Shown piece by piece: positions 54,800-64,000 of a DNA stretch of 64,000 nt. The position numbers and the translations under genes are program-made. The DNA lies in NCBI RefSeq assembly GCF_013387455.1, contig NZ_VWNC01000006.1:124001-188000 (forward strand), in the 5' to 3' direction. This DNA comes from Mariprofundus sp. NF. GTDB lineage: Bacteria > Pseudomonadota > Zetaproteobacteria > Mariprofundales > Mariprofundaceae. Position 1 is the stretch's first letter, and each line of letters begins with the position of its first letter. The notes under the pieces are model-generated. The model had not been told where the DNA came from. It made no database searches and saw only the letters and a program-made list of their open reading frames with translations.

Positions 54800-55276
54800 T
54801 TATTCACAATTAATTGCAAAACAGTCCTGCGCGCAGTGTTGAGCATCCGAAGAGAAGGCCCGTTTCAATTTTTGACATTTAACATCCGCACCTGAGGCAT
54901 GTGCCTCTTCGCATCTGGATATCGTACCTGCTAATTCGAAAAGAGTATCAGGGGAAACAGGTTTCGTTAAAAAATGACAAACCTCTCTATTGCGAGCCTC
55001 ATCCCCTCTATCATCACCGGAAACAACGATAACTCTCTGTTGAGGATACCTCTCCCGCACGCTGTCGATTAACTCATAACCACCCATCTTAGGCATTCGG
55101 ACATCTGTAATAATAGCTAGAGGCGGAAAATAATGGCTGCTATCTACAAACTTGAGATATTCAAGTGGATCTGAAAAATCTACTGCCTGATAGCCTGCCG
55201 ACTCCAACAGCTCCACCATTAACGTAGAGAGAGTCACTTCATCATCTATAATGTGAAACATTGTATTCACTGCCAT
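54800..55276 (-). CDS. response regulator, CheY-like receiver
   Basis: A receiver of about 120 residues with a 35-residue Cys-containing tail. The acidic pair is IIDDE, the phospho-Asp is in IITDVRMPKMGG, then VVSGDD (Ser for the usual Thr) and FLTKPVSPD. There is no output domain. I prefer the ATG at 55276 (MAVNTMFHIIDDE); an ATG three codons earlier is possible. A small helical protein is encoded about 100 bases upstream on the same strand. Confidence 0.85.
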   Translation of the reverse strand: MAVNTMFHIIDDEVTLSTLMVELLESAGYQAVDFSDPLEYLKFVDSSHYFPPLAIITDVRMPKMGGYELIDSVRERYPQQRVIVVSGDDRGDEARNREVCHFLTKPVSPDTLFELAGTISRCEEAHASGADVKCQKLKRAFSSDAQHCAQDCFAINCE

Positions 55277-55379
55277 ATCCTCCAAACATCTTCGAACTAA
55301 TAAGGAGTCGGAGGAGCAACCAGTTTATTACAAATTAAAATAATGGCGCTGTAGATATTTTCTGTTGAACAGGGTTTTA

Positions 55380-62606: not shown

Positions 62607-63242
62607 TTACTTACGATTCTCTTTCATATACTGCATGCGATAGGCACGGAAGTAGGCAGCCATGGCAGTCATCTCTTTAGAATTCTTCTCGAACTGTTTG
62701 CCTTTCATAGGATTGATCATGCAGTAGTTGATCATCTGATCAAGTGTCACCACATCACCCACCATCTCCACATAGTGAGGATAGTTCTGGTTTTTACCCA
62801 GGTTCAGCAGTTCATGGTCGGAGTGACAAGAGAGACAAGCCATACCGGATGTGCCGAGATTTTCATCGTTCCACATCTTTTTACCCACAGCGGCAGCTTC
62901 GTTAAAACTTTTAAAGGCTTTATCTCGAAGTGGTGCCTTCTGACTTGTTGAACATGGGTTCATGCTGCATGGATTGCCAGCACCACACGGGTTCATTGCA
63001 CATGGATTGGCACTTTTTGGCATGGAGCAGGGATTCATCGCACATGGATTAGCTTTTTTCGGCATAGCGCACGGATTCATACCGCATGGGTTAGCATGCT
63101 TCTTCATCGAACAAGGATTCATGCTACACGGGTTTTTCATTGCACACGGGTTACACGGATTATGGCTACCAGCAGATGCAGATGTTGCCACCATACCCAG
63201 ACTCATGATCAAAACAGCCATCATGGTAATTAATTTATTCAT
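62607..63242 (-). CDS. exported NPC-repeat protein with C-terminal cytochrome c domain
   Basis: A 211-residue protein. After a signal peptide cut near SASA come about 75 residues built of twelve Asn-Pro-Cys units, mostly in the doublet form NPCxMNPC separated by Lys-rich linkers. The C-terminal 100 residues form a monohaem cytochrome c: haem site MACLSCHSDHELLNLGK and a probable axial Met in INPMKGKQFE. The Cys/Met-rich repeat is likely to bind soft metal ions such as copper, but this is inferred from composition. I know no characterised protein of this type. Confidence 0.88.
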   Translation of the reverse strand: MNKLITMMAVLIMSLGMVATSASAGSHNPCNPCAMKNPCSMNPCSMKKHANPCGMNPCAMPKKANPCAMNPCSMPKSANPCAMNPCGAGNPCSMNPCSTSQKAPLRDKAFKSFNEAAAVGKKMWNDENLGTSGMACLSCHSDHELLNLGKNQNYPHYVEMVGDVVTLDQMINYCMINPMKGKQFEKNSKEMTAMAAYFRAYRMQYMKENRK

Positions 63243-63334
63243 CGTTCTCTCTCCTCCATTGTTTGGGCATCTGTTTCTGAAATGGCCCTAATGTTGTAGT
63301 GGTCGGATGAGCAGTTCGTTTCTTACATAAAACG

Positions 63335-63372
63335 AAAAAGAGCCACACTGCCTCAGGCAATGCGACTCTTTT
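63335..63372 (-). terminator. rho-independent terminator after the small NPC-repeat gene
   Basis: On the minus strand a long stem (AAAAGAGTCGCATTGCC with GGCAGTGTGGCTCTTTT, pairing throughout if G-U pairs are allowed) is followed by TTCGTTTT. It lies 21 bases past the stop of the 80-residue protein and separates it from the NPC-repeat cytochrome gene. Confidence 0.85.
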
Positions 63373-63393
63373 CATTCAAACACTCAAACTGGA

Positions 63394-63636
63394 TTAATGT
63401 TTACCGTGATCGTTCATAGCACATGGATTGCATGGGTTGTGGCTCTTCATGTCACACGGATTCTTCTTGCCCATATCACATGGGTTTTTCTTCATCTCAC
63501 ACGGATTATGCTTCATGGCACACGGATTCGCTGCGCATGGATTACAGGGGTTTTTGTGGTGTCCGGCAAATGCCGGTGCCGCTGAGAGGCCAATTGTCAG
63601 CAGCGTCGCTATAGCCAAAGTGGTCATCTGTTTCAT
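63394..63636 (-). CDS. small exported NPC-repeat protein
   Basis: An 80-residue protein: signal peptide ending APAFA, then eight Asn-Pro-Cys units in about 50 residues with Met, His and Lys between (for example NPCEMKKNPCDMGKKNPC). It has no haem motif. The mature part is over 15% cysteine, with His at both ends (GHHKNPC and NDHGKH), which fits a periplasmic metal-binding peptide. It is a shorter relative of the repeat part of the neighbouring cytochrome and is separated from it by a terminator. Confidence 0.85.
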   Translation of the reverse strand: MKQMTTLAIATLLTIGLSAAPAFAGHHKNPCNPCAANPCAMKHNPCEMKKNPCDMGKKNPCDMKSHNPCNPCAMNDHGKH

Positions 63637-63736
63637 GATTCTATCTCCTCTTCATGCCCCTTTGGGGAATTGATGAACGATAGGTCGAAACAGATCTCAG
63701 ATTATTACAACGGTTTCAAATAATTATAAACAAACC

Positions 63737-64000
63737 CTAACAGCACCCGGAATCACTACAGCAGCCACCCGGTTTCACCGCTTCAATATAGGCAGAGACC
63801 ACATACGCCTCCACGCCCCGTCCCGGTGCCCAGTCACGAATAAATTCACGCGACTCATCCTTAGGCTTAATGCTGATCTTCTCAAAACCGGCCGCAGCCA
63901 TCATGGCTTCCAGCTCATCGATCAGAGATGCACCTGCCATACAGCCGGCATGCAGCACCGGATCATTTTTCATCTCATCCGGCATCTCGGCTGTGGCGAC
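63737..64000 (-). CDS. ArsM-like arsenite methyltransferase, C-terminal part
   Basis: The last 87 residues of a protein that continues past the right edge. HAGCMAGASLIDELEAMMAAAGF, then RDWAPGRGVEAYVVSAYIEAVKP, resembles the C-terminal region of ArsM, whose conserved cysteine in a GCxxGA context binds As(III). The tail GGCCSDSGCC adds four cysteines and may bind arsenic or another metal. The N-terminal SAM domain is outside the window, so the call rests on this end alone. It lies 100 bases upstream of the small NPC-repeat gene on the same strand. Confidence 0.7.
   Translation of the reverse strand, partial: VATAEMPDEMKNDPVLHAGCMAGASLIDELEAMMAAAGFEKISIKPKDESREFIRDWAPGRGVEAYVVSAYIEAVKPGGCCSDSGCC

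Follow-up and report, generated by a model that had tools for sequence, protein, structure and literature searches.

Analysis of a 64,000-nucleotide window of the Mariprofundus sp. NF genome (2.53 Mb), covering positions 124001 to 188000 of contig 6, revealed two neighboring minus-strand genes for exported proteins built of Asn-Pro-Cys (NPC) units. The closest named relatives of this genome are Mariprofundus and other Zetaproteobacteria. The first reading frame (63394..63636) encodes a protein of 80 amino acids, P0002, with a signal peptide and eight NPC units. The second (62607..63242) encodes a protein of 211 amino acids, P0001, which combines a signal peptide and 12 NPC units with a single c-type haem domain and is referred to here as the NPC-cytochrome. 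Both genes lie where a preliminary description of this DNA had placed them, and its counts of 12 and 8 units were reproduced. Both proteins are presumably exported to the periplasm. In P0001, the repeat region (residues 28 to 97; 62952..63161, minus strand) is predicted to be disordered (AlphaFold pLDDT of about 40 to 48) and is followed by a SoxA/TsdA-type cytochrome c domain (PF21342; residues 120 to 198; 62649..62885, minus strand) with the haem motif CLSCH at residues 136 to 140 and an invariant cysteine, Cys174. A putative terminator-like hairpin with a T-run was read from the sequence between the two genes (63335..63371, minus strand).

The order of transcription on the minus strand is arsS (radical SAM), a peroxiredoxin-like gene, an arsM-like gene, the 80-residue NPC gene, the NPC-cytochrome gene, a pentahaem cytochrome gene and a gene for an FGE/SUMF1-like protein. 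The window ends in the arsM-like methyltransferase gene, whose 3' part occupies 63737..64000 (minus strand); the peroxiredoxin-like gene and arsS follow upstream of it, beyond the window (locus L003). The pentahaem cytochrome P0003 (61341..62543, minus strand) belongs to the ExtKL/c552 family and is a conserved partner. The exported FGE/SUMF1-like protein P0004 (60370..61269, minus strand) is an uncertain member of the cluster, its gene adjoining the NPC cluster in just a few relatives.

In 20,000 residue shuffles, the number of NPC units never exceeded two in either protein (observed, 12 and 8), and no other open segment of at least 60 amino acids within the window contained more than one unit. 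Every Cys of the 80-residue protein sits inside an NPC unit, as do all non-haem Cys residues of the 211-residue protein except Cys174. Comparison of the Asn, Pro and Cys codons between repeats revealed invariant first and second positions and third positions that differ in 43 to 70% of pairs. This near-random third position next to invariant first and second positions indicates a selected protein sequence rather than a recent DNA expansion, and the Asn, Pro and Cys of the repeat are under purifying selection.

The NPC pair is not limited to one genome and is part of a widespread family, in which the number of repeats ranges from 4 to 20. In Mariprofundales, the unit is usually NPCxM; relatives elsewhere have NPCAAK, NPCGAK or NPCAAP, which indicates that the conserved core is N-P-C and that Met is optional. 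The preliminary description had pointed to the spacing of Cys and Met; this NPCxM spacing is a habit of Mariprofundales. Profile searches with both proteins found no Pfam or NCBIfam model covering the repeat, and a literature search on NPC repeats found neither a paper nor a named family, in agreement with the earlier proposal of an undescribed design.

Several relatives depart from this architecture. In L115:6595-7491 and L116:6487-7200, acidic GEAEG repeats replace the NPC repeats on the same cytochrome domain. In L108:6318-6803 and L078:7839-8324 (Magnetococcales) and the related L111:1957-2691, the NPC repeat is absent or reduced to one unit and the haem motif is CLSGGCH (CX4CH); arsS is a divergent neighbor of this gene in L108 and L078. 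The replacement or loss of the repeat in some relatives indicates that the haem domain does not always need the repeat cysteines, which counts against the interpretation favored below. In another Mariprofundus genome (G019; L036 8430-8798), a frameshift or stop breaks the NPC-cytochrome gene, the reading frames of the NPC-only and pentahaem genes being uninterrupted.

The haem domain of the NPC-cytochrome was assigned to the SoxA/TsdA family by PF21342 (E = 2.7e-15; 56.6 bits; cut-off, 27). The nearest solved protein by sequence is SoxA (1h31; E = 1.3e-9), the match falling in the N-terminal, noncatalytic domain of this dihaem protein, and the SoxA equivalog model TIGR04484 gave 55.9 bits against a curated cut-off of 110. 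AlphaFold modeled the NPC-cytochrome with low confidence (pLDDT 57), and the top eleven Foldseek matches to this model were all SoxA or thiosulfate dehydrogenase chains with nonsignificant E-values. The protein shares with SoxA and TsdA the fold family, the CXXCH motif and a Cys in the axial-ligand column, Cys174 being invariant in 34 sequences and aligned with the axial Cys of SoxA. It differs in having a single haem domain placed after an NPC repeat, in the absence of SoxX and SoxYZ and in lacking the catalytic Arg and Ser. In TsdA, the Arg four residues before and the Ser four residues after the Cys bind thiosulfate (PMC4423706), and a TsdA-like protein in L045 keeps both. The NPC-cytochrome has Met170 (Cys-4) and Pro178 (Cys+4), both invariant, at these positions, and its identification as a thiosulfate dehydrogenase was therefore rejected. 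From these alignments, the haem is probably His/Cys ligated and probably does not perform thiosulfate chemistry.

A role as a sulfur carrier, in which the SoxA-type haem would load sulfane sulfur or thiosulfate onto the repeat cysteines as SoxAX does on SoxY, would suit the domain family and its Cys ligand column. It would also suit locus L119, where an NPC-only gene stands in an apparent operon with a sulfur transport pair, DUF6969 and a rhodanese, with TsdA-type genes alongside. However, the thiosulfate-binding residues are replaced as described, the cluster contains no sox genes, and neither thiosulfate nor sulfide supports growth of the described Mariprofundus species (PMC5513912). This role is improbable and, like two others considered below, a modified chelator and an electron conduit, less likely for the NPC locus.

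The gene following the NPC-cytochrome gene encodes a protein with five CXXCH motifs. The P0003 fold matched that of the pentahaem cytochrome c552 from T. tepidum (5ze8; Foldseek E = 5.5e-13; TM, 0.55 to 0.57), and sequence matches comprised 5ze8 and a chain deposited as multihaem cytochrome c selenoprotein MccSep, on which a literature search found no relevant paper. P0003 has in common with ExtKL, MccSep and c552 the five CXXCH motifs, a C-terminal beta domain and the 5ze8 fold match. It differs from them in scoring below the cut-off of the ExtKL pentahaem selenoprotein model NF040886 (69 bits; curated cut-off, 250), in the absence of selenocysteine and in having an NPC protein, not a porin, as its genetic partner. 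Among 78 Mariprofundales genomes, 44 contain both NPC and pentahaem genes, 3 NPC alone, 2 pentahaem alone and 29 neither (Fisher p = 9.7e-16, a value that overstates independence because the genomes are related). The two genes are adjacent in distant genomes as well (L035, L037 and L079). In G001 and G002, the pentahaem cytochrome is present and the NPC-like protein is divergent and located elsewhere in the genome. These results demonstrate that the pentahaem cytochrome is a near-obligate partner of the NPC proteins. A link to the cbb3 oxidase was rejected, as the presence of ccoN is independent of that of NPC (p = 0.25).

The family of this partner has been linked in Geobacter to the reduction of Fe(III) and selenite, which might suggest that metal-loaded NPC repeats and haems together form a periplasmic wire for iron oxidation. 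We consider an electron conduit of this kind very unlikely: the module is missing from 29 of the 78 Mariprofundales genomes, single-contig genomes included, it has no porin partner, and its promoter, described below, is of a stress type.

NPC-cytochromes, some in tandem with an NPC-only gene, were also found in several other families of Pseudomonadota (L106, L107, L109, L112, L113 and L114). There, the usual neighbor of the NPC-cytochrome gene is not the pentahaem cytochrome but DUF6969 (PF22308), a His-rich protein. Roughly half of the examined DUF6969 loci have a gene for an NPC or NPC-like repeat protein alongside (L106, L107, L113, L114, L119, L127, L134, L138 and L139). In L139, on a Skermanella plasmid, an NPC-only gene lies between DUF6969 and a DUF302/ECF/NrsF group. 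Plasmid matches consisted only of SoxA/TsdA-type cytochromes, DUF6969 and scattered NPC-only proteins; no full-length NPC-cytochrome was found on plasmids, and neither NPC protein has relatives on viral contigs. A cyanobacterial plasmid (Leptolyngbya; L044:5980-7435) encodes an NPC-repeat protein in a different context, with DoxX and cupin genes.

DUF6969, on which a literature search found no relevant paper, is a candidate partner or modifying enzyme of NPC proteins. Its frequent adjacency would suit an NPC protein that is a RiPP-like precursor, its cysteines being modified by a partner enzyme so that the product chelates metal, by analogy with bufferins and oxazolins. Oxazolins are exported Cys-repeat proteins (PMC12452194), and one DUF6969 neighborhood includes ECF and NrsF genes in a bufferin-like arrangement. 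NPC proteins resemble bufferins, which chelate copper, and oxazolins in being Sec-exported and Cys-rich, repeats being present in some members, and in their linkage to ECF regulators. They differ from these MNIO-modified proteins in the NPC motif and the fused cytochrome. Furthermore, the analyzed genome lacks DUF6969, and no MNIO (DUF692) gene is present among the annotated neighbors (arsM, peroxiredoxin-like, arsS, pentahaem cytochrome and FGE-like genes), which makes a RiPP-like precursor decidedly improbable.

Comparison of the regions upstream of NPC genes revealed a common element, TGTAAK-N16-CGAC. In the window, motif matches to this ECF-type promoter lie on the minus strand in front of the 80-residue gene (TGTAATAATCTGAGATCTGTTTCGAC; 63684..63709) and in front of the NPC-cytochrome gene (TGTAAGAAACGAACTGCTCATCCGAC; 63302..63327). 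The element precedes 39 of 68 distinct NPC genes, compared with 0.9% of random 450-bp pieces, and in most of these genes it stands at a near-constant distance of about 140 to 180 bases ahead of the first NPC codon. Several NPC loci outside Mariprofundales lack it. In twenty NPC loci, nearly all strict elements precede NPC, arsS, VTT-MerA-like, pentahaem or anti-sigma genes. Genome-wide counts (11, 10, 10 and 6) did not exceed those of a reversed-pattern control (6, 10, 10 and 9), and the promoter assignment is therefore based on position and conservation rather than on number. A third copy in the window (55307..55332, minus strand) precedes a response regulator gene (54800-55285) whose product has a Cys-containing tail; somewhat similar regulators occur near the NPC loci L025, L026 and L032, without the motif.

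The same element precedes arsS. In the analyzed genome it is located at contig position 190235-190260, and among 20 sampled Mariprofundales a strict element was found before arsS in 15 and an element with one mismatch in three more, compared with 2.2% of random 360-bp pieces. It is also found before arsS in four genomes that have no NPC match (G007, G011, G015 and G028) and in G030, where arsS and NPC lie on different contigs. In each of the four genomes scanned, the element stands before an operon or fusion encoding a VTT membrane protein and a MerA-like FAD oxidoreductase. The same promoter was observed for an unnamed exported protein of about 145 to 150 amino acids that has conserved Cys and a YSCPLNPTPDY motif (L171:1039-1491, L177:1547-1981 and L184:1029-1472), which leads the VTT and MerA-like genes in two genomes.

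ArsM methylates arsenite, and ArsS works in arsenosugar synthesis. The ArsS assignment in the analyzed genome is supported by TIGR04167 (469 bits; cut-off, 300), and the L023 orthologue scored 354.8 bits with the ArsM model (cut-off, 263). The arsM and arsS genes are neighbors of the NPC genes, and arsS has the same promoter element; unlike the NPC proteins, their products are enzymes without export signals, and they occur in the absence of NPC proteins. As a phyletic partner of NPC, arsS was rejected despite the common promoter, its presence being independent (p = 0.57). Arsenic chemistry is thus possible without NPC proteins, and the adjacency of the NPC genes and arsS could be inherited synteny.

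In L031, L035, L037, L113 to L116, L125, G089 and G091, which represent several families, a gene for an ECF sigma factor is found beside NPC-cytochrome or pentahaem genes or in their vicinity. Where looked at, it is followed by a small gene for a zf-HC2 anti-sigma factor, which was not confirmed in L035 and not seen in L116. The ECF gene is near-core (67 of 78 Mariprofundales genomes); in the analyzed genome it is located on contig 3, away from the NPC cluster. The ECF proteins of the analyzed genome and of L113 both exceed the cut-off of NCBIfam model TIGR02943, and the L113 gene has the element at its own promoter. The occurrence of a common ECF-type element together with an ECF/anti-sigma pair near its members points to an ECF regulon. 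From this adjacency and the L113 promoter, the TIGR02943-type sigma factor would be the one that reads TGTAAK-N16-CGAC. In G026, G031 and G036, which have no NPC module, arsS and the ECF gene are still neighbors, as though a module once located in the middle had disappeared. The 3' end of the ECF gene itself contains a copy of the element, before the anti-sigma gene (L141 1067-1092; equivalents in L031, L158, L159, L160 and L162); this copy is conserved but falls within coding sequence and may be there by chance. Another conserved box, CTTGAA-N15-GGCAGAGT, was found upstream of Mariprofundus ECF genes.

ECF/anti-sigma pairs, some with Cys-based sensing, respond to heavy metals or oxidants (PMC3511200, PMC8315932). 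The main rival to a metal-related function is a sacrificial redox buffer, in which the Cys and Met of the NPC proteins would be oxidized by hypochlorous acid, peroxide or similar agents and re-reduced by electrons from haem proteins, in a manner comparable to MrpX/BcrX with MsrPQ. Like the Met-rich repeat peptides MrpX and BcrX, the NPC proteins include a small exported sulfur-rich repeat protein, and BcrX is likewise under ECF/anti-sigma control (PMC8315932), as is MrpX. Both Cys and Met are enriched in the two window proteins, the haem partners could supply electrons, and peroxiredoxin-like, thioredoxin-like, CMD-family and RclR-like genes are neighbors or regulon members at some loci. In contrast to MrpX/BcrX, NPC proteins carry Cys in NPC rather than MXKDX, cytochromes take the place of MsrPQ, no MsrP or MsrQ gene having been seen beside the cluster, and the anti-sigma factor is of another type. 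The lack of Met conservation beyond Mariprofundales and the promoter shared with arsS (with arsM beside it) and the MerA-like genes also argue against a sacrificial buffer, which we judge rather unlikely.

We favor, tentatively and at somewhat less than an even chance, an interpretation in which an ECF stress regulon that also deals with arsenic has the NPC proteins and the pentahaem cytochrome as its exported arm, the NPC proteins supplying the thiols. The other arm would consist of arsS, with its peroxiredoxin-like and arsM neighbors, and of the VTT/MerA-like oxidoreductase operon elsewhere in the genome. Stress that targets thiols, from an oxidant or from a soft metal or metalloid such as Cu(I) or arsenite, would inactivate the zf-HC2 anti-sigma factor, and the freed ECF sigma factor would direct transcription from TGTAAK-N16-CGAC promoters. 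A disordered, thiol-dense polypeptide would then be exported, and its NPC cysteines would bind soft metal or metalloid ions, with help from Met in Mariprofundales. Together with the pentahaem cytochrome, the Cys-ligated haem of the SoxA-type domain would maintain a suitable redox state of the repeat thiols or of the metal that they bind. The same stress would turn on arsenosugar synthesis and the MerA-like reductase alongside this envelope thiol pool.

The NPC proteins likely bind metal. The preliminary description had suggested binding of copper or arsenic, and this suggestion gains independent support from the single promoter type of the NPC genes, arsS and the MerA-like operon. Its other suggestion, a metal-loaded repeat wired to electron transfer, may also apply, the haem domain being SoxA-like with a Cys ligand column and the pentahaem cytochrome being a near-obligate partner. 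At a rather low probability, the NPC proteins may be exported thiol buffers of a new type that carry their own haem redox centre. Such a buffer would bind periplasmic arsenite or Cu(I), the redox state of its thiols or metal would depend on the Cys-ligated haem and the pentahaem cytochrome, and the ECF regulon would turn on its production when needed, alongside arsenosugar synthesis. The family probably works in the manner of sulfur-rich exported buffers already described, from which it differs in motif, cytochrome fusion and partner.

These results give an uncharacterized, widespread family of exported Cys-repeat proteins a strict genetic partner, a testable promoter and a tie to arsenosugar genes. 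The iron oxides of iron-oxidizing bacteria are major arsenic sinks. If the favored interpretation is true, envelope-side handling of arsenic or soft metals would be coupled to haem redox chemistry in these bacteria.
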